A stretch of 64,000 nucleotides of DNA. Origin: Hemerocallis citrina. Taxonomy: Eukaryota; Streptophyta; Magnoliopsida; Asparagales; Asphodelaceae. The stretch is taken from NCBI GenBank assembly GCA_017893485.1, contig CM030362.1, positions 38,968,984-39,032,983 of the forward strand. Reading direction: 5' to 3'. Under the pieces are notes generated by a model. It was given only the letters and a program-made list of their open reading frames with translations. It did not search any database and was not told the origin of the DNA. This document shows, piece by piece, positions 12,155 through 43,743 of the stretch. The stretch's first letter is position 1, and every line of letters begins with the position of its first letter. The translations under genes and the position numbers were made by a program.

Positions 12155-15100
12155 TTAGATAGGCGGGGTTGCCTTCTCTAGGTATTTCAAAAGATGGTCG
12201 GCGTTCCAAGTCCTGGGAATTTCTCTACCATCAAGGTCTTCTAGCTTGTATGCACCGGGGCGGATCACTTTGGATACTTTGTACGGTCCCTCCCAATTCG
12301 GGGCCAGTTTGCTCTTCTGTCCGGGGAACGAAATGGCCAGCTTTCGGAGGACCAGATCCCCCTCTTTCAAGTCGGTTGGGCGGACCCGTTTGTTGTAGGC
12401 GAGTTCGATTCTTCTTCGGTAACTTTGCTGCCGTATGGCCGCTCTTTCCCGAATCTCGTCTATCAAATCTAGGCTCGTTCTGAGCCCCCCGGCATTCTGT
12501 TCTTCTTCGAAGGCAATCAGGCGAGGAGAGGGTATTCCAACTTCTAGCGGGATGAGGGCCTCGGACCCATAGGTGAGGTTGAACGGACTCTCGCCTGTCG
12601 GGGTCCGCTTCGTGGTTCGGTAATTCCACAACACATTGGGCAGCTGATCGACCCACAATCCCTTGGAGCACTTGTCGAGTCTCTTCTTGATGCCGGAGAG
12701 GATCTGTCGGTTGGCATTCTCGGCTTGGCCATTTGACTGGGGATGAGAGACTGAGGAGAAGCGGTGCTGTATAGCTAGGTCTTGACATAAGGCTCGGAAG
12801 GCAGCCCCAGCGAACTGCGTACCGTTATCTGTAACTACGACTCGGGGAACACCGAAACGGCAGATTACGCTTTTCCAGAAGAATTGGACGACTCTATGTT
12901 CCGTAATTGTAGCCAGGGGCTCGGCCTCGACCCATTTCGAGAAATAGTCGACTGCCACGACTAGAAACTTCAACTGTCCGGGGGCCGGTGGAAATGGCCC
13001 GAGTAGATCCATCCCCCACATTGCAAAGGGGATCGGACTTGACAGGGAGGAGAGTGGTGCTTGTGGAAGGCGTCAGATGTCGGAATACTTCTGGCAGGAG
13101 GTGCATTGCCGAACGTGCTGCTCGGCGTCCCGTAGGAGAGTGGGCCAGTAATACCCGTAGTTTAACACTTTGCGCGCCAAGGCTCTGGAGCCGGAGTGGG
13201 CTCCGCCGATGCCCTCATGGAGCTCTTGCAGGGCGTAATCGGCTTGTCCGGGGGAGAGGCATCTTAGGTAGGGTCGACCATCCACCTGGGTGAAGGAGCG
13301 CTTATACAGAACGCCTTCGACCATTATGTAACGCTCGGCCCGGGCCCTTATCTTTCGGGCTTCCTTCGGATCCCTTGGTAGGAGTCCGTCTCTTAAAAAC
13401 TCGACGAGGGGCTTCATCCAATTGTCTTCGAGGGGGAGTGGCAGTGTTTCGACGGAGTTGAAAGCCTCGTCCTCTATGCTGGGCTTGAGGAGGACTTCTA
13501 TCAGAACGGTTTGTTCGAGGCCTTGCAGGGATGAGGAAGCTAATTTGGACAGGGCGTCGGCCTGGGCATTTTCCTCTCTGGGGATTCTTCGGATGAGGGC
13601 CTCGTCGAAGAGCGCCATGAGGCTCTTCACTTTGGCCAAGTACTTTACCATTCTGTCATCGCGGGCTTCATATTCGCCGAGGACCTGGTTGACGACCAAC
13701 TGAGAGTCGCTGAAGATCTGCAGGCGTCGCGCCCCTGCGTTTCGGGCCATCCCCAGGCCGGCTATGAGTGCCTCGTATTCGGCTTCGTTATTCGAGGCTT
13801 TAAAGTTTATCCGGAGGGAATATTGGAGGACAAAGTCGTCTGGGCCCGCCAGGATGACTCCAGCCCCGCTCCCCTCGTTGCAAGAGGATCCATCGACATA
13901 TACAGACCAGATAGGCGGTGCCTTCGTCGTCAGCTCGGAGTCGGGGATAGTCGTTTCAACTATGAATTCGGCCAGCGCCTGCGCCTTGATTGCGGTCCGA
14001 GGCTGATAGGTAATATCATGTTGGCTCAGCTCGATCGACCACTTCATGAGGCGGCCGGAAGTCTCTGGCTTGTAAAGGATTTGTTTCAACGGCTGGTCGG
14101 TAAGAACGACCACCGAATGAGACTGGAAGTATGGCCGAAGCTTTCTTGCAGCCATCATCAGGGCGTAGGCTACTTTCTCAATTTTCGGGTACTGGAGCTC
14201 GGCGTCCCGGAGCACTTTGCTGACGTAGTAAATGGGCTTTTGAGTTCTTTCTTCTTCCCTGACTAAGACCGCACTTAGTGTCTGTTCCGAGGCTGCCAAG
14301 TAGAGGTAGAGAGGCTCGCCCGGTATGGGTTTGCTGAGCAGAGGCGGGTTGACGAGGTAAGCTTTAAGCTGGTCGAAGGAATCTTGTTGCGGCTGCCCCC
14401 ACTCGAACCCCTTAGTTCCCCTCAGGGCTTTGAAGAACGGGAGGCATTTCTCCCCGGACTTCGACAAAAAGCGCCCAATGGCGGCTAAACGACCTGTCAG
14501 TTTCTGAACTTCTTTGACGTTTCTGGGTGGGGCCATGTCCAGTATGGCCCTGATCTTCTCCGGATTTGCCTCTATTCCTCGTTGGCTGACCATAAAGCCG
14601 AGGAACTTGCCTGATGAGACGCCGAACGCACACTTGTTCGGGTTGAGTCTCATACTGTGCTTTCTCAAAACATCGAACGCTTCTTGGAGGTCGGCTTCAT
14701 GATCAACGCCTCGGATGCTTTTCACAAGCATGTCGTCCACGTAGACTTCCATGTTCCGACCAATCTGGGCCTGGAAAACCTTGTTGACGAGACGTTGATA
14801 CGTTGCCCCTGCGTTCTTCAGGCCGAACGGCATGACTCGGTAACAATAGAGTCCTTGGTCCGTTATAAAAGACGTCTTCGGAATATCCGGGGGGAACATC
14901 CTTATCTGATTGTAACCCGAGAAAGCGTCCATGAAGCTGAGGAGCTCATGTCCCGAGGTTGCGTCAATCAGAGTGTCAATGCTCGGCAGAGGGAAGGGAT
15001 CTTTAGGGCAGGCCCTGTTGAGGTCAGTGAAATCAATACAGATTCTCCATGTCCCATTGGATTTCTTCACCATGACTACGTTGGACAACCACTCCGGATA

Positions 15101-17860
15101 ATTCACCTCCTGTATGAATCGGGCTTTCAGCAGTTTGTCTACCTCCTCTTTGATGGCGAGCTGTCGCTCAGGGGCGAACTTGCGCCTCTTCTGCTGGACC
15201 GGTTTGGACCCCGGATCAACGCTGAGGCGATGGACCAAGAGTTCTTCGGAGATACCGGGCATGTCCGCTGCTGACCATGCGAAGAGGTCTCGGTTGGCTC
15301 GGATGCATTTCACAATATTTGAATGTAGGGCGGACGGGAGTGCCTTGCTGACATAAAACTTACGGGTCGGCTCCTGCTCCGAGAAGAGTACTTCCTCCAG
15401 CTCATCTACTGGCTCGGGAGTCGGCCGAGCAGCATCTTGTGGGATCTCGAGTGTTTCTAAGGAGAGGACGGGTCCGAGTGTGGAGGTCATGTAACACTTG
15501 CGGGCCTGTTCCTGATTGCCCCTAACTTCTCCCACTCCAGCCCGAGTGGGGAATTTCATTTTGAGATGATAGGCAGAAGGGACGACTTCAAGGGCGGCTA
15601 GGCCGGGCCGACCCAAAATGACGTTGTAGGCCGCTGGGACATCTACAACCATGAAATCCATTGACTCCGTGCGGGTAGTAGGAGTTTTACCTGCTGTGAC
15701 GTCGAGGGTAATCACCCCTTCGATCGTCACCGGCACTCCCGTGAACCCATGGAGCGTATACCCGGCGGGCTTCAGTCTGTCTCGGGAGAGCTTTAGCCCC
15801 TTAAAAGCATCGAGGAATAGGATGTTAACGGAGGAGCCGTTATCCACTAAGATTCTTTCGACTTTGAAATTGGCCATGTGAAGGTTGATGACGAGCGCGT
15901 CGCAATGAGGGGTGCGGACGCCCTCGAGATCGTCGTCAGAGAAGGTGACGGGCACTCCGAGTCCTTTGGGGGGAGGGGTGGCCCGGACAGAATTTACTTC
16001 CCTAATAAAAGCTTTCCGAGAAGAGTTCGAGGAGCCCCCCATTGGACCCCCATGGATAAGGTGGAGGACTCGCTCTTCCTCGAATTCTGGTGTCTCTTCC
16101 CGTTCTGGACGTTTGTTAGCCCCCCGAGGCTGGGGAGGAAGTTCGGCCCCGTCCTTTCTTACAAACTTCGCCAGCTGCCCCCTCTGGATGAGGGCTTCGA
16201 CCTCGTTTCTCAGAGCCCGGCAGTCGTTGGTGTCATGCCCATGGTCCCGGTGATAACGGCACCATTTGTCTTTATCCCTCCTTTTGGCTGGGGTGTTCAT
16301 CTTTGGAGCTGGAGGCAGGACCCCTTCTTTTTCGACTTCCATGAAAATGGCGGAGATGTTTGTGGTGAGGGGAGTAAATTTTTCAAATCTAGGGGGAGGC
16401 CGGCGCTGGCCAACATTATCCTTCTGAAACTTTTTGGGTCCCTCTTCTTCCGTTCCCTTCCTCTTAGACCCGGAGGCGGTCGCTTCCCAGTTGGGCGGTT
16501 CCTCGGCCTCTTCAGCTCGGATGTACTTTTCAGTGCGGAGGAGGAGGTCAGAAAAGTCATGTGGCGGCTTTTTGGCGAGGGAGGAGCGGAGGTTAGAATT
16601 TAGGATGTTGGATTGGAACGCCGCAGTAGCAACGGATTGGTCGAGGGATGCGATGGTTCTGGCCTCGGCTGTGAACCTCTTCACGTAGTCCCTCAATCTC
16701 TCTCCCTTCTGCTGACGGAGGTGCAACAGGGAAATGCTGGTCTTCTCGGCCCTTCGGCTGCTGACGAAGTGGGTGATGAACAGGGTCTCGAACTGTTCAA
16801 AGGAGAATATTGACGCCGGGGCAAGGCGAGAGTACCATTCTCGAGCTGGGCCCTTCAGAGTTGCAGGGAATGTTTTGCAGAGGAGGGCGTCGGACGCTTG
16901 ATGGAGGAGCATCAAAGTCTTAAAGCCTTCGATGTGGTCAACCGGATCGGTCTCTCCCGTGTAGTTCTCGAACTGGGGAGGTTTGAAACCGAAGGGAACA
17001 GGAGTATCCACTATGGTCCGGGAGAACGGGGGTTGGCTAGGACGGAGGGTCCTCCCCCTGAGTTCTTCTTCTCGGTTTATCTGTCCCAAGAGTTTTTCCA
17101 CCTCGTTCAGGCGGCGGTTCATGGTGTCATCTCTCCGGCGATGATCTGCCGAGCCACGGGACTCGTCTTCGTAGGATGGGGAGCGAGGGCTGCGGCGACG
17201 GTAGCTTCGGGAACGACGAGGACTTGGGGTGCGTCTGGAATTGGTAGGAGCGGGTCGAGGAGAAGGGGAACGTTGGCGAGGGCTCCGGACCGGACGAGGG
17301 GAGGGGGCCCTTGGCTCATTGGGATTCTGACGGAGATTGAGGGCCTGTTGTACCATAGCTTGGAATTGCTGGAACTCGGCACGGGTGATGGGTGCCTCAT
17401 TGTTCCGATGCTGCTGCCGACCTGCTGGTGAGTGCCTCCTTCGGTAGTGATCGGGGGAGTCTTTTCTCCCTCTTCGGGCGGGGGACCCCCTGTGTCCCCG
17501 GTGTCGGGGGGATCGTTCTTGGTGGGAGGCTTCCCCCCGAGCCCGCTTTTCGTCCAGATGGTGACGAAGGTCCTTATCCTCCGGGCGTCTGGGATGGGCA
17601 TCGCGGCGACCAGAGGCTCGGGGATGATGGGAGGCCATGGAGGCACTGGAGGCAGTGTGGTTGGGTATGTTCTCTGGATGAAGCGGCTGTTTCTGGGGGT
17701 TAGGCCCCTTCGGATCAGGATGTGGAGGGTTCCGCTGGAGCGGCTCTTCCACGGTAGGAGGGAGCTGCCCTTGTTGCTGAGTGGGATCAGGAAGGACCTC
17801 TTGCTGGTCGGGGTTGGGCGCTCGATTGGAGCCCCTAGATCTGACTTTGCGAGGCGGCAT
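12155..17860 (-). CDS. Gag-Pol polyprotein with a single in-frame stop
   Basis: Start is ATG 17860 ([10 protein letters not shown]), matching MPPRARRS at 38313 in the other element. Approximate order by residue: basic, Pro/Arg-rich N-terminus; Gag (290-440); Cys/His knuckle [14 protein letters not shown] (about 535); aspartic protease [11 protein letters not shown] (about 670); reverse transcriptase with [12 protein letters not shown] and [10 protein letters not shown] (about 1015-1045); RNase H (about 1185-1300); second RNase H with YVDGSSC and SDSQLVVNQ (about 1320-1440); integrase zinc finger to [14 protein letters not shown] at 13073-13075 then interrupts, and the same frame continues with the integrase core ([31 protein letters not shown], all three acidic residues present) to the stop at 12155. 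Everything else is open over about 1,900 codons. Confidence 0.9.
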
Positions 17861-17911
17861 GGCTGGAGAAAATCTGTTCACCGGGAAGAGGAGAGGTCTC
17901 TATTCGTTAGT

Positions 17912-18546: not shown

Positions 18547-19744
18547 CATGGTCTACTGATGTGTTTGCAGGTTTTACTTGGATGCTAATGTAGTGCACTT
18601 GGATGCATGCAGTGCACTTTGATGCTTTAGAAGAATGAATGGATTTATCTAATGACATGAACTGCATCTCGCTTAAATATATTTTAAAGTATTTTTAATT
18701 TCTGTCATACTAGGCAATGATGAAATACACTATTAATGAAAAGGTTGTGTGTCCACCCCCATCTACCATCATGTGCCACTGATCAATCTGGATATGATGG
18801 ATGTGGTAGCTTCTGATTCAGTTTTTTTTTATATTAACGTAAACAGACAGCACTTCTATGTGGACCGTTCCCATTATACTGACCAAATAATTGATGAATT
18901 CAACTATGGGTGACGGAGGGGGTGGACACATGATTAGTAGTAGTTGGCAAAAAACACTAATCTTGATGATTTATTAGAACAATTGTTCTATGATAATGTG
19001 TTCTGAGCCTACGACTAATTATAGAGATGATGATGATATATTCTGATCCTATATAACTTTTGGAGTATTGAAAATTTTCATATACTAGAAATGAAATACA
19101 TGCTACATTGTGTTGGCTTCTTCTAGCAGGTGATGGATTCTGATGCTGCTCATGGCTTCTGAATCTTTCTTGGTGTTTTATTTTCCTGGCTTCATTATGC
19201 TTTTAGAATTTTTGAAGGTTTCATTTTTCACTTTCAAAATTAATTTCTTGTTACATTTCCTATAACTATCATGGCTTCTGATGAGTTTTGTTACTGCTCA
19301 TGTACCTTCCTGTGATGGGTTTGGATGCTGCTCATGGTTTCTGATGGCTTCTGTTGGATTGTGATGACTTCTTCTACCTTTATAAGGGATTATGGTATGA
19401 AATTCACTTTCAAATGCATGGCTTTATGAACCTACAAATTTTTCAATACTATGTACAATTTCCTTGCTGTGATGGCTTGTGATGATACTCATGGCTTCGG
19501 ATGTTTCTCATGGATTCTTTTGGTTTCTGATGCTGTAATGCTTCACATGCTGTCATTGCTTCTGATGCTATAATGCTTCTTTATGCATACAATTTCGGTG
19601 TAAGTGCTTCTTGATACTTGTATCAGATGCATGCAGATTTGGTGATGCATGCTTCTGATTCTTTATGATGCTTGTGATGGGTAATGAAAGCATCTGATGC
19701 TTTATAAGTGAGTAAAAGTGATCATATCCACATTGATCATTTTA
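18547..19744. repeat. Harbinger non-coding sequence with degenerate TGATGCT/TGATGGCTTCT modules
   Basis: No gene is visible. The stretch resumes the host of the Gypsy insertion. A piece at about 18900-19020 (AACTATGGGTGACGGAGGGG and after) is related to 8125-8270. From about 19120 the sequence is built from variants of CTGATGCTGCTCATGGCTTC and TTTATAAGGGATTATGGT, which recur at 25700-28170. Confidence 0.6.
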
Positions 19745-20389
19745 TATCACTACAAGGAATTTTACATATAATGATAGCAAAAATCCGTGGGTAAAAGGCG
19801 AAAAACCGTAGGTATAGCCCGTAAGACCTATACCAACGGACATATTTTTCCGTCGTATTTAATTAGCTATACCCACGGCAAAATACCGTCACTATAGCCT
19901 ATAGCGACGGTTTTTTTACCCGTTGGACAAAACCTCGGTGTTATACCCACGGTTTCGTATCCGTTGGTATAGGTTTTAAAGACACATTTTGCTTTCCTAT
20001 ACCCACGGTTGAAGCTCCATTGCTATAGGTTTTAGCGATGGTTTTCGCATCCAATTATCTGAATATATACTCATCGCTCTATACACAATTTTTTCTTATT
20101 AATTATATATGCTTATGATAATTTAATATTTTCCTTTATAATATTAATTCAATTATAAACCAAATACACAATGAAATAAATACATGTGTTTATGAAACAA
20201 AATTAAATAAAATTAAACTTCAATCATATTAATAATTAATGAAGTATTACAAGCATGTCAAATTCAAATTACAAAATAGTTAAAATGTCAACCTAAAAGT
20301 ACCATACTGACGTATAATAAGCATATAAAGTCTTATAATAATCTCATCCACTTAATTTCGAGGTTTTCTCCATCAACAGAAAATTAGTA

Positions 20390-20689
20390 CTTTAGATTAG
20401 GACACTCGGTTCCTTTCCCACCAAACCACTAAAACCACTCCAGGAACAAACTCTGCTGCTGATTCAATAGGAGGGTGAGAATCGCCTGACCGAGGCCTTC
20501 TTCTAACATCCGAATCTCAAGGCCCTTTGGACACCTCAGTAGCCATCCAAAATCCTTCAACATAGGTCGAAACCATGAATCTAAGACAGCAAATCTCACA
20601 TCTCCAGGGCACCGAAGCTTCCCTTTTCCTAGTGCTATGAAAACACTTGCAGAAACCCTGCTGAGCTCGTAGCGATAATGTGCATACCC
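20390..20689 (-). pseudogene. Captured exon piece of a BTB/POZ-like protein
   Basis: The minus-strand frame reads YAHYRYELSRVSASV, then DVRFAVLDSW, FRPMLKDFGWLLRCPKG, then LEEGLGQAILTLL and QQSLFLEWF, a stop, and GTECPNL in the same frame. This resembles the C-terminal region of plant BTB/POZ-domain proteins, where blocks like FRPMLxDFGWL and LEEGLGQ occur. I identify it from memory of that family, with moderate confidence. The TAG at 20429-20431 interrupts it. It follows the Ran-derived codons in frame without a visible intron. The native gene is expected elsewhere in the genome. Confidence 0.5.
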
Positions 20690-20944
20690 TGCTGGTGATT
20701 CCACAAAGTGAAGGTTTGCATCCCTGAATTAAACCAACTTCCAGTATAAGAAATCTTTCCTAATAGCTATCTTCTCACAAACGTAAGTCTCAATTAAGAC
20801 AAACTACTCAGTTTCTTACCCAGCAAGCTTTCGAGCCAAGTAGAGGAAAGGCTTTTCGAAATTGTAGTTGCTCTTGGCCGATATCTCATAGTACTGAAGA
20901 TTCTTCTTCCTATGAAAGGTGACCATCTTGGCTTTCACCTGCCT
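20690..20944 (-). pseudogene. Captured Ran GTPase fragment, two exons
   Basis: Exon 1 (20944-20820) encodes [20 protein letters not shown] followed by [21 protein letters not shown], the highly conserved Ran segment around the guanine-binding SAK motif. An intron with proper GT and AG ends (20819-20724) follows. Exon 2 (20723-20690) gives DANLHFVESPA, after which the sequence becomes BTB-like. Ran is the small GTPase of nuclear transport. The P-loop and the C-terminal acidic tail are missing, so the fragment cannot work as a GTPase. The retained intron shows capture at the DNA level rather than from an mRNA. Confidence 0.88.
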
Positions 20945-20946
20945 GT

Positions 20947-22008
20947 ACTGATGTTCTCGAGATCCGCAGTCTTATTCATTCTCTTTAATATTCCTGCGAT
21001 AACCTGCAAGCCACGAAGCAGCCAAAATCACTAAGTCAAAATTAGAAAGCGTAGATGTTTACAAGCAGCAAGATGATCAGATTGTACCAAAAATTGGGTG
21101 AAAATTGATTTTTAAAAAATAACATCAGGGACACCATATAGTTTGTAAATACCTTGCCAGGTCCTAATTCATAGCTTTTCTTAACGCCTTTGTTCAAGAG
21201 AGTCTTCACAGTCAACTCCCATTGAACTGGCGAAGTCACCTGTTTAAAAAGCATTAACCACCATGATAAACGAATGTTCAGGAAACTAAAAGTTCGAGTA
21301 ACATAATTCTTGGAAATATGTTTTTAAATTCAAAGCAGACTTTTCAAATAAATTCAATAAATAAAAACTAAATAAATAAGTAAAAATAATTTTGAAAATT
21401 TTCATTTTAGTCCTAATTATACTGTCAAACTACAACAGATGGTGATGAACATCATATTTAACCAGTAGACTATAAAATTAATAGCCTAACTGACATGCAA
21501 TATCAGTCAATACTGAGACGCATCGGAATGGCAGTCTGCCAACCAATTGAGAGATACTTCTAACAATGTCCGGTATAACCAATGACAAGCTTACTTGACC
21601 CCAATACAAATGGTAGCCATGGTAGTAATCGTAAATTTGTAGTAAAAGCACAAATATACTGAACATAGTTCCACCCTCTGGTGTATTTGTACAATTTTAA
21701 GGTGCATCAAATCATTTGCACACTCTGTAATGAGCTTTCTACGTAATAAAGCGAGCCTCTAAACTATGTGAAGAGTTGAGCAGTACTCTTTCTTCAGCAA
21801 TAAATGAAATTTCACAACAGGAGTAGCTGACCTGACGTGCCAAAATCTTTTTGATAGTATCACGATCAGAATGTGGTTGGGCGTCCACATTTGATATGAC
21901 AAGTATTCTGGGTTGCCTGATTTCAGTTGCTGCCAATGCTGCTTCTAACCGTGAGACAGCTGGTTCCATGAAGCTTGTGTGGAAAGCACCAGCAACAGCC
22001 AAGCGGAC
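20947..22008 (-). pseudogene. Captured malonyl-CoA:ACP transacylase fragment, three exons
   Basis: Exon A (22008-21832) encodes VRLAVAGAFHTSFMEPA to TIKKILARQ, including the GAFHTSFM block with the catalytic His region of FabD-type transacylases. Exon B (21239-21153) encodes VTSPVQWELTV to KKSYELGPGK. Exon C (21003-20947) encodes [19 protein letters not shown]. All borders keep AG and GT. In plants this plastid enzyme moves malonyl groups from CoA to acyl carrier protein for fatty-acid synthesis. Only the C-terminal third is present, and the active-site GHSLG part is absent. At about 20945 the sequence switches to Ran, and the transacylase frame meets a TGA three codons later. The fragment is non-functional. 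Confidence 0.88.
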
Positions 22009-24418
22009 CTGATATCCAATAAATACGTTAGTGCTAACTGGAGTTTCCAAAAAAAAGATGATAATTAGTTCCTTCGTAGAGATAGTGATGATGACGATGA
22101 AATGTAAGTCCCATACTAAAAGAATAGACATAAGCAAAGAACTTGTGCCTAGTATATGATCTCAACAGAATAATGCATTAGTTAAGAGTTCATTTCTTGC
22201 TATATTATAAATGTTGTAGTTAGTATCAGTGAGAATCCTTCTTGTTATTTGCTAGTCTGATAGTGGTGGTATATACATTAGAAAGGTAATTTGCTCAGGT
22301 GATGGTACAGATGTTGGGGGACTCATACTAGAAACAATGTCTTGTATTCCTTAAGAGGATCAATATGTAAAGATCATTAATGTAAATGTCAAATGTTATA
22401 TTACCACCATAATGCTATATGGTAAAATTATTGAAGATGAGAATTCTATCATAAATTAGACATGAATATAAATGCACATTGATAAATGTTAGTATGTTAT
22501 AGTGAAAACCTGCGAATCTCGCAGGAATATGAAAGAAGAATAAATGGACAAAAAATAATTAAAACATCACTTTCCTATTGCTGAGCATCAAATGATCATA
22601 TAGAAGACTAACATTCATAACTACAACATTCGAAGTTAATTATAAGTTATGATTCACCATTGGAGAAGGCCAGTGAAAGAAGATCTAAAGAAGAATAGAA
22701 CAATAAATAATTCGATCACAAACACTTGCAGAAAACACTTCCCTTTCCCTTGTCCTTTCCACACCTTTGTTGAACAAAATTTTGAAACATACCTGAAAGC
22801 ATTCGTTAAAATCTTTTATGAGAAAACTTGCCTTTACAGCCCTCAAAACACTTATACATCAATGAACAATTAATCAACAAAAAAATCTTGTAACATATTT
22901 CATACCATACGGCAATGATCAAATGACTACAACAATTCATGAGGATAAAAACTTGTTTTGATATCGTTGCATATTTTCCAAACTACATGAAAATATGTGA
23001 ATACAAATTTTGTTCTAAAAGTGGTTATAAAATTGAACTCCTGTGAAGTAAAAAACTCAAACCAACGAAAGAAAATAGAAAGCCGAAGTGCTCTTTGTTT
23101 ACTCTGATTGCTGCAAAATCATGAATTACTCAAGTCTTGTGAAATTTGTTTACCCTTTCATCATCTCGTTACAAATATAAAATATTTCAGCCAAATAATT
23201 TGGTAGCATTTTAATGCATGTTTAACCGGAAGAAAGACGAATGCATAGCAAATGGAGTTTTGGTGACTTGACACAGACATGAAATGTACAACTCAACGAA
23301 AATTTTGAACATATATTTAATTTTGTACAAATGAACTGTAGATCAGTAAATATTATATTTTCAGATCTTTCATAGACAAAACAGAAATATGCTTTTGAAA
23401 ATTATGTAAATTGACTATTGACTGCATTTAGAAATGGTATCAAGAATCTACCGCTACATTGGTAGACACATAACCATTTTTGTGGTATTTAAGTCTTGGA
23501 AATTTTATGGGACAGTCATTCCCCATTCTTCCCCATTCTGTTGTCCTTCCAGATATATATTGGCAAATTGAGCTGTATTATGAAAGCATAGTGTCTAGCA
23601 AGAAAGAAGATGAATTTAGCTGATGATGTTGTAGTTCCTTTATTTATGCCAAGAAGTTAATGTTATCAGAAGCTTTTGATTCACTGGCCACTTTACCTTT
23701 CTTTTTGTTGATTTATATAGGAGACAAGTTCAAACCCCTGCAAGACCTGCAAGATCTCCCAACCTCATCAATGACTTTCTGAAAAACACCTCAGGCAGCA
23801 TGTTTTACATAAAGATAAGTGCAAGATGAACTAACTAGGACGGTATATTACTGTATGGGTGATGGTCAGTACCTTAGAAATGGAAATAATATAGTACTTG
23901 CAAGAGTCGAGGCCATGAATATATATGATCTTGTACTTGTATGATGTCTCTTCACTGTTTACTTTTTGACACATACACTTTTTTCATGGCTTCCTGGAAA
24001 CAATGAGATAATGTCACATGAGTAAAATTAATAAAACTACATCTGAAATTTGATATTCTCAAGGCACATCTACTCTAGCAACCAAATAAATATTGCATAT
24101 TATAGAATGACAATACTCAAAATTTTTTGATACCAACAAGTTTGGCCTCGGAAAACAAATGCTTCATTACCTGAAATGGTGAATTCTGGTCCTCCTAGTT
24201 CCTCCTCTTCAGTCAATTACGCAACCTGCAGTTGATACGAAATATAGCTAGAAGATCAAAACTTGAATTGGAAAAGTAGGGTCAGTGTGAAATCGAGTGA
24301 GTTTTCCTCAAAATAAAGATGGTCGGCATTACCATTGACTGAAAAAAGTAATGAGATGTATTAAAGTTTCCAGTTTTCTGCTTGGGGGCTGAACCTGTTT
24401 TATATTGTTGCTTTGCAG
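22009..24418. other. CACTA interior, AT-rich, no further exon recognised
   Basis: About 2.4 kb of AT-rich sequence lies between the transacylase exon and the pectate lyase exon. It has the look of introns or untranslated captured DNA. I found no convincing additional exon, though short diverged ones could be missed. Confidence 0.5.
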
Positions 24419-24557
24419 GTGCCGGCATGGTTACTTCCATGTAGTGAACAATGACTACACTCACTGGGAGATGTACACCATCGGTGGGAGTGCCGACCCC
24501 ACCATCAACAGCCAGGGCAACAGATACCTTGCCCCAGCTGATCAATTTGCCAAGGAG
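24419..24557 (+). pseudogene. Captured pectate lyase exon
   Basis: After an acceptor site (TTTGCAG) the plus-strand frame reads [33 protein letters not shown] and [12 protein letters not shown], then a GT donor. This is the conserved core exon of plant pectate lyases, secreted enzymes that cut de-esterified pectin in cell walls. It is the only exon of the gene I can see, lies opposite in strand to the other captured fragments, and has lost the rest of the beta-helix and the signal peptide. Confidence 0.88.
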
Positions 24558-24609
24558 GTAATTTCTCAGATGATAACTCTAAATTCCTCAACTCTCATAC
24601 TAACTATAA

Positions 24610-24990
24610 AACTCGAGGCATGTGTTGTGTTCACCTCTGGTCTGCGGGATTGCTGTCGTCGCGACTGGTGTGCGGGAGTGCTGCCAGGGGGACAGGGGGC
24701 GGCACGACAGGACATGGACGGCAGTGCTGGACGGCGGGAGGCGCGGGAGGTGCGTCGCGACTGGTCTGCGGGACTGCTGCCGTCGTCTCTGGCTGCGGGA
24801 GAGGAAGGGGAGAGGCAGGGCTTCACTGGCGGTGCAATGGGGAATTGGGGATGGGGACTGGGGATTAGGGCTGTAGCGTCGCCTCTGGCTACGGGCGGGA
24901 GAGGAAGGGGAGAGGTCGGGCTTCACTGGCAGCGGGATAGGGAATTGGGGATGGGGACTGGGGATTAGGGCTGCAGTCTCGAATTGGGAA
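24610..24990. repeat. GC-rich imperfect repeats inside the CACTA element
   Basis: GGGATGGGGACTGGGGATTA recurs about 108 bp apart, and CTGGTCTGCGGGA-type phrases also recur. The stretch is open in several frames on both strands only because it is GC-rich and repetitive. It may derive from the 5' leader of a captured gene, but nothing proves that. Confidence 0.5.
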
Positions 24991-25039
24991 TTGGGGAATT
25001 GGGAAAGTGTATAACTATTAAGTATTTTTATTAAATAAA

Positions 25040-25240
25040 TATATATTAAATTAAGCGGATATCCGTATCCGAATCTGCTTTTTTTAGGGATATCCATATC
25101 CGTATCCGTATCCAAATTTTTTTTATTTGGATATCCGAATCCGTATCCGCCCGGATACGGACTTTTTATATCCGTATCCGCCAAAAAGTCAGATTCGGAT
25201 GCGGATCGAATCGGATATATCCTTATCCGAAAGCATCCCT
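25040..25240. repeat. GGATATCCGTATCCG-type repeat, possible hAT remnant
   Basis: Many short CGGATAC / GTATCCG phrases recur. Read on the minus strand, the segment starts TAGGGATGCTTTCGGATA, resembling some plant hAT termini, but the partner end and an 8-bp duplication were not found. Confidence 0.35.
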
Positions 25241-25356
25241 ATACCTATACCCACAGTTTACTATACGTCTGTAGGTATATGATGCCTATACCCACGGTTT
25301 TAGTGATCCGTCACTATAGGTATCCGTTGCTATATGGCAAATTTCTTGTAGTGTAT

Positions 25357-28200
25357 ATTGGCATGGCAATGAAATGCATTAAAATGCATGATTACAACTA
25401 GTTGGCATGGCATTCAGATGCAGCCCTAGACTAATCTTCATGTTTTATACAAATATTTTTTCTATACATAAGTGTTATGAGGCTTCGACTAATTGAATTC
25501 TATACATAAGTGTTTGTGATGCTAGTGATGCTTGTGATGCTAGCAATTACAATCCATCATGAGCCATGAGCACCATCAAAAACCATGACAGGAAGAAAAT
25601 TGTACACAGTATGGAAATTTGACAAAGAAAGTAATCAATGGTTTAGTTAAATAGCATTAGAAGGCATCATCTCTAGATTCATCTCAGGCATATGTGAAAA
25701 TTTTGTGTTTGTTTACTAGTATTTCACAATCTGGGGATGATGATGATTTATTCTAATCCTGTATACTCTTTGGAGTCTTGAAATTTTTGATGTTGCTCAT
25801 GGCATTTGATGGCTATGGATGGATTGTGATGGCTTCTTCTTGCTTTATAAGGGATTGAGGTTTGATTCTCACTTTGGAAAATATCCATATTGTACACAAT
25901 GTACCTTCCTATGATGGGTTTTGATGCTGCTCATGGCCTCTGATGGTTTCTGATGGAATGTGATGGCTTCTTCTTGCCTTATAAGGGATTAAGGTCTGAG
26001 TTTTACTTTCAAAATAACCTTCTTGTTACTATCTTATAACTGTGAAGGCTACTGATGCTTGTGATGGCTTCTTTGGTTTTTTTCCTGGAAAAGCTAAGCA
26101 AAAACTGCTTTGAGAACTTCGTAACCAAACGCATTTTCTTAAAAAGAAAACGAAAACAGGGCCCTAAACAACTATCCAAACAGGGCTCAGTTTGTTAAAT
26201 ACTGGTAACCAAACATGTACAAATTTCTAATAGAATTTGTACATGTGCCTGAGATGAAAATCTTTGTTCTTTAATGTTCTCTTAGCTCAATGATCTTGTT
26301 TGTAAGGATGTATACATAGTTTTGCAATAGAATGTGTTGCAGGCAACCTAGGAGATGATGGCTTCTGATCCTATAAATTTTCTAATACTGTGCACAATTT
26401 CCTTCCTATGATGGATTCTGATGCTGCTCATGCCTTATGATGTTTCTTCTAGCAGGTGATGGGTTCTGATGCTTATCATGGCTTCGAATCTTCGGGGTTT
26501 TAATTTCCTGGCTGCAACCTGGTTTGTATAAGTATTTTTGAAGTTTTCATCTTAACTTTCAAAATTAATTTCTTGTTACATTCCTTTTAACCATCATGGG
26601 ATCTGATGGGTTTTGCTGCTGCTCATGTACCTTCCTGTGATGTGTATTGCTGCTGCTCATGGATTTTGATGGGTTCTGTTGGATTGTGATGACTTCTTCT
26701 TTATAAGGGATTATGGTATGAATTTCACTTTGAAAACCTATTACATTCTTGTTACTATGTTAAAATTCTGAATGCTGTGAAGGCTTCTGATGCTTGTGTT
26801 GGGTTCTCATATCTAAACAAATCATTCTAATAAAAGGGTTTGCACATGTGACTCACATGAATATCAAAATGATGGATTTATGACCCTACAAAATTTCCCA
26901 TACTATGTACAATTTCCTTGATGTGAAGCCTTGTGCTGCTGCTCATGGCTTCTGATGTTTCTGAGGGAGTGTGCGAGGCATTTCTGATGCTGTGATGCTT
27001 CACATGCTGTGATGGCTTCTGATACTGTGATGCTTCTGATGCATGCAGTTTCGGTGGAAGTTTTTTCGTGTCATATGTTTGTTGGCAGTATCTCTCCATC
27101 TAACAGGAAGTACTTCTTTTAATTCTACTTTAAATCACCCTTACTCTTTTTCCTTTATCAGTCTAGGCAATGATGAAATGGACTAATGAATATTTATATT
27201 TCGTAATTCATCCATGCCAATTTATTTTTTCATGAAAAAATCATCTATATTTTATTATCCGAAGATGATGATGATATATTCTGATCCTATATAACCTTTG
27301 GAGTATTTAAATTTTTGAAATACAAGTAACCACAAACATGGTTGGGTTGTGATTGGAGTAACCAAACACAAATATCTACTAAATTTTGTATATGTCCCTC
27401 TCATGAATCTGGAGATGATGGCTTCTGCTCCTATTTAGCTAAACTATTGATTTCTCCTTTTTAGGAAATCACACTGTGTGAAATTTGTGATGGGTTCTGA
27501 TGTTGCTCATATCAGCTGATGGCTGCTGATGGGTTATGATGGCTTCTTCTTGCTTTGTAAGGGGTTAAGGTGTAAGTTTCACTTTGTAAAATTTGGATAC
27601 TGTGTACAATTACCTTCCTGTGATGGGTTCTGATACTGCTCATGGCATCTGATGGATATTGATGGATTTTGATGGCTTCTTTTTGCTTTGTAAAGGGATA
27701 AGGTGTGATTTCCACAATAAAAATTGAATTCTTGTTAGTATGTTATAAATTTGAAGGCTTCTGATGCTTGTGATGGATTTTCATACTTGGGTCATCTCAG
27801 TTTGTGAAATACTAATAACCAAACACATATTTCTAATAAATTTTGTACATGTGCCTCATATGAATCTGGAGATGATGACTTTTGATCCTATTTAACTAAA
27901 CTTTGATTTCTTTATTTCTAAAATTTCCATACTGTGTACAATACCTTACTCTGATGGGTTCAAGTGTTGCTCATGGCATCTAATGGCTACTGATGGATTG
28001 TGATGGCTTCTTCTTGCTTTATAAGGGGTTAAGATCTGAGTTTCACTTCGTAAAATTTGCATACTGTGTCCAATATCCTTCTTGTGGTTGGGTTGTGATG
28101 CTGCTCATGGCTTCTGATGTTTATGATGGATTTCGAAACAATTTGATGCTTTATAACAGATTAAGGATGATGTTTCACTTTTATTTATTAACTTGTATTA
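25357..28200. repeat. Degenerate repeat region of the Harbinger element
   Basis: This non-coding region is built from three recurring phrases: TGATGGGTTCTGATGCTGCT-like, CATGGCTTCTGATGG-like, and GCTTTATAAGGGATTAAGGT followed by GAGTTTCACTTT. TATAAGGGATT-like pieces occur near 25850, 25981, 26702, 27560, 27690 and 28020, so units are irregular, about 130-700 bp apart. The region continues what was interrupted at 19744. Confidence 0.6.
26085..26189 (-). repeat. Second Harbinger-type terminal repeat inside the element
   Basis: Read on the minus strand from 26189, GAGCCCTGTTTGGATAGTTG and the GCGTTTGGTTACGAAG-type subterminal sequence match the left end at 4146-4230. AGT follows instead of TAA, so it is either an alternative right end or the end of a second nested copy. 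Confidence 0.6.
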
Positions 28201-29621: not shown

Positions 29622-32600
29622 CTACCTCCTCATCATCAAAATCCTTAACCTGGAAGACTCTGGCAATCCTCCCTCTCGCTCCTGTGGGGGCAGCTGCAGC
29701 CCAAAAAGAGATAAGATGCATGATATGAGTAAGGTTACCAGAAATACTACTACATGAAGCACGAAAATAAAGTTATTTCTGTCTAGCCATAACACACATG
29801 TAGTTGCCGCAATTGCAATGTACCACGCATCTTTCATTTCGTGGCGGGTTGAAGCGAATTTGGGACCGATCCACAAATCCTCATACTCATTGGGGTAGTC
29901 CCTTGTACCTTGGGCTCTTAACACCTCAACCATAGTTGCCTTGCTCCTTGGGCATTGGATAAAAAGGTGGTTCAGCGTCTCCGTTTGCATGTTACAGAAC
30001 CCACAGGCAGTTGCAATCTGGGGTTGTCTTTTTGCAAGGTTTTCTCTCGTGAGGATAGCATTATTGAGCACTAGCCAGAGGAATACTCTGACTTTCAGTG
30101 GTGTTTTTGCCTTCCAAAGCACCTGTGCCCAGCTGGGTCGGTATCCCCGGAAGTGAATACGATGGTAAAGGGATCTGACCGAGAAAGAGCCCTTGGGCTC
30201 TAGTCCCCAGCGCAGTTGGTCTGGTCCTTGGGTGCACATCGATCCGGACTGTGCGATGTGTGTTTGCAGTTCTAGCAGTTGCTGCTGTAGTCCTGGGGTA
30301 AGAGGTCCTTGAAATGCCAGTTTCCAATTTCCCCTCTTCCAGGTATCTGCCATAGAGATATTAGGGCGAATTGTTTTGGCAAACAGCTCCGGGAAAGTTT
30401 CTTTCAGTGTATGATCACCACACCACTTATCCCACCAAAATCTGGTGGACCGTCTATTTCCGATATTCGATGTCACTGCTGAATTGAACAGACTACTAGC
30501 TTTGGAAATTCCTTTCCAAAAACGGGAGACCGTAGCTCCTACTCGAAAGCCCAAGCTTCTCGTACCTTTTCCCCGTAGGTATGGTCGAATGAAATCCTTC
30601 CAGCCTTCCCCCCCGTGGTGGAAATCCTTCCACCACCATTTCCCTAAGAGGGCAAGATTCATATCTCTAAGGTTGATGATTCCTAGTCCTCCATGCTTCT
30701 TCTTCATGCAGGTAATACCCCATCTGATCAGGTGGTAGCCTCCCCTATTTGACTCTGCCCCTTTCCAAAGGAATCTTTTACGGATTCGGTCAATCCTTTG
30801 GATGACCCACTTTGGGAGCTCAAAAAAGGACATGTAGTAAATGGGTAGGATAGACCGTACTGAATTAATGAGTATCACTCTGCCTCCTAGTGACAGCAAT
30901 TTTCCTTTCCAACCAGATAATCTGTCCTCCACTCTATCTATTATAGGCAACCAGTTCGACTTAGCGAGTTTCCCCGGTCTGAGTGGGAGCCCTAAATATT
31001 TTATAGGGAACTCATTCGTCATACAGTTTAGTATGGTGGCATGCGCCCGGGCTTCTTCATCCGCTAGAGTAATGGGGATCAGTGCACTCTTGTGAAAGTT
31101 TATCCTGAGACCAGACCATGCTTCAAAGCAATAGAGGGCCCCTTTAAAGCAGACTGTTTCTGATCTGGTCCCGTTCCCAAAAAGTAGAGTGTCATCACCA
31201 TATTGTAGAATCGTGCACCCTTGATTGGAGTTGCAACTGGCCACCGATTTAATCCAACCTTGTCTCCGAAAATTTTCCAGCATTCCCCTTAGCACATCTG
31301 CTACAATAGTGAAAAAAAGTGGGGATAACGGATCCCCTTGCCGGAGTCCCTTCTTGCAGGGAAACGATGGTCCTGTCCTCCCATTCACCGATATTGCCGT
31401 TTTACTAGTCTGTAGGCATTGTTTGACCCATCTAATCCATCTGTCCCCAAATCCTATCCCTCTGTGAGCTTCCAGCAAACACTCCCAGTCGACGGAGTCG
31501 TATGCTTTTCCAAAATCCAACTTAAGAAGGAAATTCTTCGAATTGCTCGTGTGACAGTGGTGTATAACTTGTTCAGCAGTGGCCACACAATCCAGGATAC
31601 ATCTGCCCTTGATGAAGCCTATCTGGGATTTGTTGATAATGTTATCCATTAAACTCCCCAGGTGGATGGCCAAGACCTTTGTGATGATCTTCGCCGAGCA
31701 ATTAATGAGGCTTATTGGTCTGAAATCCCCCACACGTTTAGACTCCTCCCGTTTGGGGATCAGGACAACTTCTGCAAAATTGAACATGCCCAATCTGAGG
31801 TTGTTATGAAAAAATTCCCCCATTAATGCCATTATGTCCTCTTTAATTTCTTCTTAGAATACTTGGTAGAACATCATTGGAAAGCCGTCTGGCCCAGGTG
31901 ACTTGTCAGCGCCCACTTGGTTGATGGCCTTCTTCACTTCCATTTCTGAAAAAGGATCCTCTAGACTGGAGAGAGTTTGCACTGAGTCAACCTGGGTCTC
32001 CTGCCAGAAATCCTCCCTCAAAGGAACCCTGAAATCATTCTTTCTTCCAAACAGGCCCTTATAGTAGTTCTGGAAGGTTGAGGAGATCGCCTTCTCATCC
32101 TACAAAGTACCCGACTCCATCTGAATTGAGAGGACGAGATTGGATCTGCGTCTGGCGCTAGCCACCCGGTGGAAGTAGGTCGTATTCGTGTCTCCCTCTT
32201 TAAGCCACAAAATCCTTGACCTTTGATGCCACTTGATCTCTTCCAACCTATAGAGATTGGCGATATTTTTCCGGAGCTCTAATAGCCTGTTCCTTTCTTC
32301 CTGAGACAAGACTCTCGTTTCTTCCACCCTTTCCAGCTCATCGATACCTTCCAAGAATGCCTCTTTGGAGCGCCAGATGGTCGAGAACCTAGATCGGTTC
32401 CATCTGCGCAGCCGTTTTCTCAATCGTCGAATTTTCTCACACCATCAGGATGCAGCGTCCCTCCCAGCGGTTGGGAGCACCCAATTTTCCATAACCATGT
32501 GATGAAACCCCTGAATTTCCAGCCAGGCTTTCTCGAATCTGAATTTCCGCATCCTCTGCGCTCCGTATACCCCCACGTCGAGCAGTATTGGGGTGTGGTC

Positions 32601-38312: not shown

Positions 38313-39698
38313 ATGCCTCCCAGGGCCCGGAGGTCGACTTCTTCCGCCCGCCGTAACGGGCCTCCTAACCAGGACGCCCTCGCGGGAGGGCAAGGGTCAA
38401 ATAATCCGGGGGCGAACCTCAGACCCCAGCAAGGCGAACCTCACGTCGAGCAACCCGACCTTCGTCGGGTCATCATGAACCGAAGGGCTAGTCAGGCCAG
38501 GGGAGGGACCGCTTCCAACTCGGCCCCGAACCATTCAAGGTTGTCAGTACTCAGCCGCATCGGCTGAATTCCTACACCCCGACCCGACCCTTCCGACCAC
38601 GGCGTGGTCACAAGGGCCGAGTTCCGGAGCTTTCGGGAGGAAATCATGGAGGCGCTTCACGGAGCGCCAAGGTCCGCAACGCTCGACCGACCCCGTCAAA
38701 AGAGCGAAGGAAGGAGCTACACTCACGCGCCGCCTCCTCCACCGGAGCGCACAGACCAGGTACTCCGTCGCCTCACTGAGATGGAGAATCGCCTCGAGCG
38801 CATCGGCGACGGGAATCCAAACCCCGTCCTAGGCCGAGCGCCTTCTCGGCCGCCATTCTCCGTCAACATTTTAGAAGCGGAAATCTCCTGGAACTTCCGG
38901 CCTCCGCAATTCGAGACTTACAACGGCGAGGGTGATCCAGCTGATCACATGGAGGGCTTCAAGACCCTCATGATGATTCACAGCGCTTCGGATCTCCTGC
39001 TGTGCCGAGCCTTCCCGGCTACCCTTCGGGGCCCGGCCAGGGAATGGTTCTCCAAACTCTCCCCAGGCTCAATCTTTTCGTTCGATCAGCTGGAAGCCAA
39101 CTTCTTGGACCACTTCGTCACTAGCCGGAAAGCCGAGAAGACAAGCGCCTCCCTGCTCGACCTCCGCCAGAGGGAGGGGGAGTCACTCAGTGACTTCGTC
39201 AAAAGATTCACAACCGAGGCAAGATCCGTCTCTGCCCTCGACGCCGGGGTCGCCTCGGCCGCCTTCCGGCACAATGTCCGCCACAATCAGCTGAAGGTCT
39301 CCCTGGCGAAGAAACCACCTCTGGACTTTCCCGACCTTCTCAATCGAGTCGAGAAATACATACGAGCTGAAGAAGCTCTAAACTCAGAGGGCAGCAAAGA
39401 AGTCATAGGAAAGGGCAAGCGCAGGGTCGATGAGATCGAACCCGCCAAGAAAGAAAAGGAAGGGGTCGGCGCGAAGAGGGTCCCTCCGGTCCCTCGTTTC
39501 TAAAGGTACACTCCCTTGACACAGAACGTGTCCGCCATCCTCTTAGAAATCGAGGACAAAGGCTTTGTCCGACTCCCTCCCCAACCAAGCAACAACAAGA
39601 AGCGAGACCAACACTTCTACTGCCGTTTTCACAGGGACCATGGGCACGAAACTGACCAGTGTCGGGCCCTGAAAGACGAAATCGAGGCCCTCATTTGA
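38313..39698 (+). pseudogene. Gag of the second Gypsy element (broken)
   Basis: ATG 38313 starts MPPRARRSTSSARR. An in-frame TGA at 38565-38567 interrupts the variable N-terminal part. The Gag domain follows in the same frame: FRPPQFETYNGEGDPADHME, then REWFSKLSPGSIFSFDQLE and KKPPLDFPDLLNRVEKYIRA. TAA at 39501-39503 comes next, then the Cys/His knuckle CRFHRDHGHETDQC, then TGA at 39696-39698 with a one-base shift into the protease frame. The intact relative at 8540-18541 has none of these breaks. Gag would form the particle that packages the element RNA. Confidence 0.85.
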
Positions 39699-42600: not shown

Positions 42601-43743
42601 TTCAAACGCTCATACACACTGGCCGATGGTAAGCCGTACCTCCGCTGTCTCACCAATGACGAAGCCAGCTACGTGCTGAAGGAACTTCATGAAGGGATCG
42701 GCAGATGCCATATGGGAAGCAGATCCCTCGCTCGCAAAGCCCTGAATCAGGGTTACTATTGGCCCACCATGCTCCAAGACTCCCAAGACCTGGTCAAGAG
42801 GTGCGGCCCCTGCCAGAGGTTCTCCCCTATCAAGAGGCTTCCTGAAGCCAATCTACGATCCCTGGCTAGTCCTACGCCATTTGCCATGTGGGGCATGGAC
42901 CTTGTGGGCCCCTTCCCCGTAGAAATAGGACAAAGAAAATTCTTGATAGTCGCCATCGACTACTTCACAAAGTGGCTCGAGGCCGAGCCACTGTCCAGCA
43001 TCACCGAGCGCCAAACACAGCAGTTCTTCTGGAAGAACATCGTTTGTCGATTCGGGATCCCTCAGGTCCTCGTTACAGACAACGGGACCCAGTTCGCAGG
43101 CCAAAACTTCCGAAAGTTCTACGAAGACATCGGCACCCAGCAATGCTTCTCCGCCATATGCCACCCTCAGTCCAACGGCCAAGCGAAAAACGCGAACAGG
43201 CAAATCCTCGACGGCCTCAAGAAGCGCCTCGACAGTTCCCCCAAGGGGCTGTGGGTAGAAGAGCTGCCCAGCGTGCTGTGGGCGCACCGAACCACCAAGA
43301 GGATCCCCACGGGAGAGACACCGTTCAGTTAAATCTACGGGACCGAGGCAGTGATCCCCGTAGAAATTAGTTTGCCCTCCCCCCGGATCATGGCCTTCGA
43401 CGAAGCCGACAACTCATCCGGCCTAAGGGCCAACATGGACCTCGTTGCCGAGGTCAAGGAAAAGTCATCCGTCCGAAGAAATATCTATCAACAGCGGATC
43501 GATAGGTTTTACAACAAGAAGGTCCGCCCAACAGACATCAAGGCCGGATACCTCGTGTTACGCAAATTGTCCGTCTCTGATCCCACCAAGAAGAGGAAGC
43601 TGGCCCCCAACTGGGAGGGCCCATACAGGATAGCGGAGGCCATAGGGCCCGGCACTTATCGACTGGTGGACATGGAGGGTCGAGCGATCAAGCGACCCTG
43701 GAACCCAGAGCACCTAATGAAGTTCCTAGAAGAACGGTCATAG
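39699..43743 (+). pseudogene. Pol of the second Gypsy element (broken, integrase Glu lost)
   Basis: The protease has [17 protein letters not shown] (about 40060). A frameshift at about 40375 precedes the reverse transcriptase ([25 protein letters not shown]). RNase H ends at GQALT-stop, where the relative has Glu (TAG 41938-41940). The second RNase H has YVDGSSCETGSGAG and SDSQLVVNQ. The integrase has a zinc finger (CGPCQRF), WGMDLVGPFP and [10 protein letters not shown], but SNGQAKNANRQ, where Lys replaces the catalytic Glu seen in the 8540-18541 element. TAA at 43330-43332 breaks the C-terminal part, which continues to 43743. It cannot make functional Pol. Confidence 0.88.

Follow-up and report, generated by a model that had tools for sequence, protein, structure and literature searches.

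The CACTA element and its copies

A 64,000-nucleotide stretch of the Hemerocallis citrina genome (assembly GCA_017893485.1, contig CM030362.1, positions 38,968,984-39,032,983 of the forward strand), referred to here as the window, was found to contain a non-autonomous CACTA element at positions 19748-25353. The element had been proposed in an earlier reading of the letters alone, hereafter the sequence-only reading, from its ends, a TAT duplication and subterminal repeats, all of which were seen. Its termini (19748-19770 and 25331-25353) are 23-nt inverted repeats that start with CACTA, are 87% complementary and read CACTACAAG...CTTGTAGTG, whilst subterminal TATACCCACGG-type units, inverted forms among them, lie at 19858-20034 and 25241-25300. 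CACTA elements generate a target site duplication (TSD) of 3 bp, and the TAT duplication was read directly on both sides. The longest open frame within the element is 212 amino acids, and a Pfam search with 15 of the frames, a part of the total, gave no match to a transposase, in keeping with the earlier view that the element has no transposase of its own. The genes that this view had placed in the interior were also identified, by PDB or Pfam matches, as three exons of malonyl-CoA:ACP transacylase (MCAT), two exons of Ran GTPase, a BTB/POZ exon and a pectate lyase exon (Table 1).

Table 1. Features of the CACTA element in window coordinates, with the donor or related loci of each piece (TIR, terminal inverted repeat)
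Feature	Position	Strand	Donor, identity or remark
TSD TAT, left	19745-19747		read directly
CACTA left end: TIR and subterminal TATACCCACGG-type repeats, then AT-rich sequence	19748-20392		common to 26 copies
BTB/POZ exon piece (outer, part 1)	20393-20674	-	donor C6:293.45M, 97.9%
Filler 1, BTB/Ran join	20675-20690		no template found
Ran GTPase piece: one exon, intron, start of next exon (middle, part 1)	20691-20949	-	donor C1:158.34M, 98.1%
MCAT piece, three exons and introns (inner)	20947-22512	-	donor C3:268.53M, 96.1% including gaps
Filler 2, MCAT/Ran join	22513-22531		12 exact nt of MCAT exon 20988-20999, inverted
Ran intron piece (middle, part 2)	22532-22714	-	donor C1:158.34M, 96.7%
Filler 3, Ran/BTB join	22715-22757		15 exact nt of BTB exon 20641-20655
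BTB gene piece (outer, part 2)	22758-22800	-	43/43 identical to donor C6:293.45M
Sequence common to BTB-only elements	22801-22942		partly repeated in genome
Stretch common to an apparent second kind of mobile element	22943-25241		similarity to C4:176.13M and C5:248.70M ends at 25241-25242
PP2A B55-like gene family piece	23130-23764	+	C7:8.28-8.32M, 91-94%
Alpha/beta-hydrolase piece	23757-23938	-	cluster C8:205.69-206.31M, 75-84%; C2:249.77M (gene or element), 97%
Unidentified clustered locus piece	23938-24385		C1:23.58-23.88M, 89-94%
Pectate lyase exon and flanking intron	24392-24605	+	donor C8:224.32M, 96.7%
CACTA right end	25242-25353		common to BTB-only element C3:99.98M; first 29 bp by BLAST, remainder by eye
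TSD TAT, right	25354-25356		read directly

Genome searches covered the 3.78-Gb assembly in 701 contigs, and all copy numbers given here are lower bounds. The search for other copies of the element that the sequence-only reading had suggested yielded 26 copies with a common left end that were compared (window included), four of them full-length; the other 25 start at the CACTA base or up to 6 bp before it. The number of independent insertions is at most 25, as C6:146.34M (L006) and C6:146.35M (L005) are near-identical neighbours (99.9% identical, 13.5 kb apart) whose flanks agree over the length compared, a pair that is probably a recent local segmental duplication. Each of the three remaining full-length copies shares these ends and has a perfect 3-bp TSD of its own (C6:238.51M, AAG; C6:151.41M, GTA; C8:137.08M, AAC), and a related element of 5509 bp at C3:99.98M is flanked by ACA on both sides. 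Perfect duplications, each its own, were therefore found in all five copies read at both ends, and because the full-length copies each carry such a duplication, the element family is mobile. The element has the features of a Pack-CACTA element that were tested: CACTA TIRs, a short TSD, subterminal repeats, host gene pieces and no transposase matched.

Donor loci and the nested layout

The sequence-only reading had counted at least three host genes inside the element, probably four, a figure that proved too low, with at least seven donor loci found (MCAT, Ran, BTB, pectate lyase, PP2A-B55-like, alpha/beta hydrolase and an unidentified cluster). Searching the genome with the exons, as that reading had advised, placed the donors of the four named genes at C3:268.53M (MCAT), C1:158.34M (Ran), C6:293.45M (BTB) and C8:224.32M (pectate lyase). 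Its claim of gene capture by a CACTA element held in that all four are separate loci with introns, whilst direct capture of the pectate lyase piece became doubtful, as set out below. The pieces are in mixed orientation, with MCAT, Ran and BTB on the minus strand and pectate lyase on the plus strand, and both Ran and BTB are split into two pieces that lie apart.

The MCAT exons lie on the minus strand at 22008-21832, 21239-21153 and from 21003. Joined, they matched PDB malonyl-CoA:ACP transacylases with an E value of 1.2e-18, and the match of a single frame to Pfam PF00698 was weak (E 0.18). The captured piece is collinear with the donor across 1582 alignment columns; the donor has further MCAT exons upstream and a native stop, and its exons, when joined by eye, match PF00698 (E 1.6e-11). 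The Ran exon matched PDB Ran/Gsp1 (E 7.2e-21) and is accompanied by 11 codons of the next exon, the second of the two. Both Ran pieces occur in order at C1:158.34M, 295 bp apart. For the exon, other Ran loci are almost as close; the intron piece reaches 97% solely at C1:158.34M, with 13.1% substitutions at the next Ran locus that holds it, and was assigned to C1:158.34M because of this match at a Ran locus together with collinearity. The BTB exon of the element belongs to PF25553 (E 6.3e-39), as does the gene frame of its donor (E 8.4e-116). Similarity of this donor to two paralogues continues past the captured limit (L085 1128-2241), and C6:293.45M is therefore a gene rather than an element copy. 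No CACTA end nearer than 3 mismatches in 15 was found in the 3.1-3.3 kb read at each of the four named donors. As introns are included in the collinear captured stretches, the template was genomic DNA, and retroposition was rejected on the same ground.

Read along the minus strand, the left interior runs in the order BTB (22800-22758), Ran (22714-22532), MCAT (22512-20947), Ran (20949-20691) and BTB (20674-20393), such that one donor lies inside another. The MCAT piece occupies the place of 295 bp missing from the Ran donor sequence, and Ran, with MCAT in it, occupies the place of 541 bp missing from the BTB donor sequence. Relatives that keep the displaced sequence survive elsewhere in the genome. 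The BTB-only element at C3:99.98M aligns with the BTB donor without interruption over 866 bp (98.4%), and copies with BTB and Ran and without MCAT have a contiguous match of approximately 443 bp to the Ran donor (L030 1317-1759), within which L030 1317-1500 is Ran sequence absent from the MCAT-bearing copies. In the right half of the C3:99.98M element (L093), coding-like pieces were seen by eye, with no Pfam match.

By content, the 26 copies comprised four with BTB and no Ran, seven with BTB and Ran and no MCAT, six with BTB, Ran and a 248-bp MCAT piece, five with BTB, Ran and a longer MCAT piece, and four, the window copy included, with the longer MCAT piece and the pectate-lyase half. The BTB/Ran join was found in 22 copies, each with a CACTA left end in the stretches read. 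A tree of the left ends set these 22 Ran-bearing copies apart from the BTB-only copies and the donor with support of 87/78, below the 95/80 mark of the tool, and grouped the four full copies with support of 98/93. Three of the six short-MCAT copies were seen to hold positions 22783-22850 too, which suggests that their MCAT was probably cut down by further replacement. Three BTB-only relatives carry internal deletions, of two different kinds, that fall in the same captured stretch of BTB. Four of the seven BTB+Ran copies contain an additional donor piece, an exon of a metallophosphatase (PF00149, E 3.1e-7), whole in two and partial in two. At C8:159.06M (L031 95-420) this piece looked purple acid phosphatase-like by eye, and its 99% matches at C264:363136 and C4:139.63M are either the donor or further elements.

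The right half has a different composition. Positions 22943-25241 appear, by comparison with other loci, to be the terminal portion of a second mobile element with gene pieces in it: C4:176.13M and C5:248.70M match from 22943 to 25241-25242 and end in ...GCATCCCTA, beyond which their flanks differ, and to the left of 22943 they have sequence in common that is absent from the window. Direct capture by the CACTA element is doubtful for the pectate lyase, PP2A-like, hydrolase and C1:23M pieces because they sit in the 2.3 kb common to this second element, with which they probably arrived. The terminus at 25241 resembles those of hAT elements, and the stretch could be hAT-like; no matching opposite terminus with an 8-bp TSD was found in a scan of the window and the loci, outside which lay the far ends of the second-element copies. 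In a relative at C2:249.76M the hydrolase piece extends further on both sides, with 87% identity across 195 bp and 81% across 200 bp to a gene of the cluster, and it was therefore probably also cut into later.

The pectate lyase exon matched PDB 1pxz (E 3.7e-13), with no Pfam match for the fragment in the element, and its donor has an upstream pectate lyase exon that matches PF00544 (E 3e-7). A downstream exon of the PP2A-like donor resembles PP2A B55 (PDB 3dw8, E 3.1e-4 over 28 residues); this locus had no useful Pfam match, and its provisional name comes from the 28-residue PDB match. The alpha/beta-hydrolase cluster matched PF00561 (E 1.7e-8). Two side observations concern this half and its terminus. 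The 191 bp at 22943-23133 have 92-99% matches at more than 10 places that lack the rest of the element (40 of 119 candidates scored), and the BTB donor gene itself (L085) has, just ahead of the exon that was captured, a repeat of TATCCGTATCC-like units that ends in ...GCATCCCTA, the same type of terminus as at 25241.

Assembly of the interior

How cut-and-paste transposons pick up genes is still argued, with fusion of neighbouring insertions on one side and templated repair of internal breaks on the other. Here donors, recipients and simpler relatives are present in one genome at approximately 2-3% divergence, hence each join is open to inspection, and for two steps at least, the finding of one donor within another tells the two models apart. 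We consider it probable that this Pack-type CACTA element had its interior rewritten several times, by templated repairs that brought in BTB, Ran and MCAT and then by a replacement that brought in the second-element stretch. In this history the element would have been transposed by a transposase made elsewhere. An 866-bp stretch of the BTB gene would have been copied into it; a break inside BTB would then have been repaired by a Ran copy with loss of 541 bp of BTB, and a break inside Ran by an MCAT copy of approximately 1.58 kb with loss of 295 bp of Ran. The first Ran capture would have measured 737 bp if both remaining pieces were once joined, a size that no copy holds whole. In the lineage of the window copy, the right interior may then have been replaced by 2.3 kb from the second gene-carrying mobile element, either inserted and trimmed or itself copied as a template. 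The successive stages would have spread by transposition. The breaks, their cause and the templated repair, or gap filling, at each step are what we infer from the layout.

The joins argue for such repair at two points. The template of filler 3 is a 15-nt segment of BTB exon located 19 bp from the opposite gap edge, a match reached by none of 300 shuffled fillers, and that of filler 2 is a 12-nt inverted segment of MCAT exon approximately 40 bp from the opposite edge, reached by 7 of 300 shuffles (each filler was taken with two or three flanking bases). Because these two fillers appear to have been copied from near the opposite edge of the gap, repair synthesis with template switching is favoured. 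The loss of 541 and 295 bp of recipient sequence together with the templated fillers 2 and 3 makes up the signature of gap filling. Gap filling at internal breaks is thus favoured by sequence loss, collinear gain from distant genes, edge-copied fillers and the recurrent BTB deletions, the last of which, in three BTB-only relatives, would fit failed repairs. The mechanism of Rubin and Levy is reportedly abortive gap repair. PMC8978399 refers to Rubin and Levy for the mechanism of CACTA captures, and gap-filling capture has been argued for animal Pack-TIRs (PMC8277862).

Several observations weigh against this history. The BTB+Ran copies carry other DNA past Ran position 1317 (left part read) and are relatives, not direct ancestors. 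Filler 1 has no template, its best match being reached by 134 of 300 shuffles, and the Ran/MCAT join looks blunt. Ten other matches to the Ran intron piece were found, at 80-87%. In animals, donors from the same chromosome are preferred in gap filling (PMC8277862), whereas the three nested donors here are on three different contigs. Dating the order of capture by divergence was rejected, as the three nested donors are about equally diverged: MCAT differs from its donor by 2.0-2.7% in the nine copies that contain more than half of the piece, the Ran pieces by 1.9-3.8% (7.7% in one copy) and the BTB down piece by 1.8-4.3%. The BTB middle, supposedly the oldest sequence, has the lowest value, 1.3% (7/541) in the single copy that retains it whole, with 4/175 in another.

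Fusion of neighbouring insertions, in which two CACTA copies inserted close together mobilize whatever lies between their outermost ends, has been published as the model for the Pack-CACTA class (Catoni 2019 as cited in PMC13317346 and PMC8903248), and CACTA clusters that fit it have been reported (PMC8903248). The last step proposed here, at 22943-25241, does join the sequences of two mobile elements. Fusion nevertheless appears unlikely as the source of the nested pieces. Their donors are on C6, C1 and C3, with no single neighbourhood known to hold all three, and a scan for end motifs found no CACTA end at the BTB/Ran, Ran/MCAT, MCAT/Ran or Ran/BTB joins of the window copy, its inner hits having 3 mismatches and being located inside donor introns. 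Furthermore, fusion captures DNA between element ends, not inside an earlier capture with loss of 541 and 295 bp.

Alternatively, all pieces could have been joined in one complex event through several template switches, the simpler copies being later deletions. The similar divergence of the nested donors, at approximately 2-3%, is what such an event would leave, and fillers 2 and 3 resemble template switching. We regard this as quite improbable, since deletion cannot restore displaced BTB or Ran sequence and the simpler copies are consequently not deletion products of a full copy: the 541 bp of BTB are still in place at C3:99.98M, in an unbroken match to the donor, and the BTB+Ran copies keep the Ran stretch that MCAT-bearing copies lack. 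In addition, the tree places the BTB-only copies, with moderate support, apart from the remaining 22, and no MCAT or Ran scar was matched in the one complete BTB-only element.

The sequence-only reading had seen in the element an example of exon shuffling that can assemble new transcripts. A chimeric gene, in which splicing would join the MCAT, Ran and BTB exons into a product that is useful and selected, has in its favour that the MCAT and Ran introns retain their GT and AG, that six of the seven splice-site strings tested equal those of the donor, and that a spliced Ran-BTB frame of the window copy stays open for 139 codons before a stop; exons of the soybean element Tgm-Express1 are spliced into host transcripts (PMC1947982). 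A codon test was conducted with two MCAT, one Ran and one BTB exon pieces in 9, 9, 22 and 23 copies, leaving out the short last MCAT exon and the pectate lyase exon and excluding eleven loci by name (three donors and eight Ran or BTB paralogue loci). Varying changes amounted to 44 non-synonymous and 6 stop changes per 491.7 sites (0.102) against 16 synonymous changes per 141.3 (0.113), and some 1-bp gaps were also present, such that change among the copies is near-neutral. Fixed differences between donor and copies (fixed in at least 80% of copies) were mostly synonymous (S 6, N 2), as expected if the donors are working genes. The spliced MCAT frame meets a TGA right after the Ran join in all 14 copies read, a fifteenth having escaped the exact search string; the BTB frame of the window copy reaches a stop where the donor continues; and the pectate lyase exon faces the opposite way. 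A chimeric reading frame under selection was rejected on the near-neutral change and the broken frame, a functional chimeric gene is very improbable, and new transcripts by exon shuffling are unsupported at the protein level.

Separate nested insertions of several independent gene-carrying transposons, with no capture, are probably true in part for 22943-25241, where the flanks of C4:176.13M and C5:248.70M differ past 25241-25242, and are scarcely credible as a general account, given that Ran and MCAT match the bare donor gene to their limits (fillers apart) and that the displaced donor sequence is missing.

The median end branch among the copies in the left-end tree was 0.0075 changes per site. 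With the grass neutral rate of 1.3e-8 per site per year, which may not be that of this host, their age would be roughly one million years or less.

The surroundings of the element are rich in other repeats. Frames of Ty3-type long terminal repeat retrotransposons (gag, reverse transcriptase, RNase H and integrase) lie on either side of it at 12155-17899 and 38568-43332, and a reverse transcriptase frame of the long interspersed nuclear element type, with zf-RVT, at 29622-31853. Immediately outside the element, a 63-nt inverted repeat (19441-19503 and 25555-25617, 81%) is found in flanks rich in TGATGCTGCTCATGG-type repeats. The CACTA element probably landed in an older repeat.

Relation to known gene-capturing elements

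The element is of a known kind, Pack-CACTA, and an unusually readable case of it. It resembles the Pack-CACTA and other Pack-TYPE elements of Arabidopsis, rice and maize in its CACTACAA-type ends, TSD, lack of a transposase, host gene pieces and multiple copies (PMC8903248). In that work, maize Pack-CACTA had the most distinct loci among the Pack-TYPE classes tested, and the TSD of Pack-TYPE CACTA elements in rice and maize was 5 nt. The difference lies in the proposed manner of capture, which there is fusion of neighbouring insertions, whereas in the present element one donor is enclosed by another, and the genome still has relatives with the displaced sequence. Newer DNA has been inferred to lie more internally in Pack-TYPE elements from statistics alone (PMC8903248); the present series shows the newer-inside order copy by copy.

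We lean slightly towards a wider statement, that CACTA elements gain genes when breaks at a favoured internal site are repaired from templates time after time, leaving layers that are old outside and new inside. If this is true, such an element is a layered record of capture, with surviving relatives for each layer. The element also carries a warning for annotation, in that exons of four familiar genes found together may be neither one gene nor the catch of one transposon. No report of a donor-inside-donor CACTA series with surviving simpler relatives was found in the literature searched, which consisted mostly of papers outside subscription.

In content, the closest likeness is to Tgm-Express1 of soybean, a CACTA element 5.7 kb long that harbours fragments, both exonic and intronic, of five unrelated genes (PMC1947982). 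The sequence-only reading had called four donors in 5.6 kb a rich case, which is a relative matter beside these five fragments. Transcripts were demonstrated for Tgm-Express1, whilst capture order, nesting and a copy series, present here, are not described in the available part of that paper. In mechanism, animal Pack-TIRs are similar in that an internal break, template switching, microhomology or short new sequence at the joins, and capture inside the element have been described for them (PMC8277862). They differ in belonging mostly to hAT and TcMariner, and in being mostly single-copy with donors often on the same chromosome, and the available text describes no nested series. The Ds-like elements with filler DNA in maize resemble the present element in that short transposon ends enclose DNA whose templates were genes of other chromosomes (PMC3260210); they are members of the hAT superfamily, known from few cases, and nesting of donor within donor, which distinguishes the element described here, is not among the features given for them in the available part of that source.

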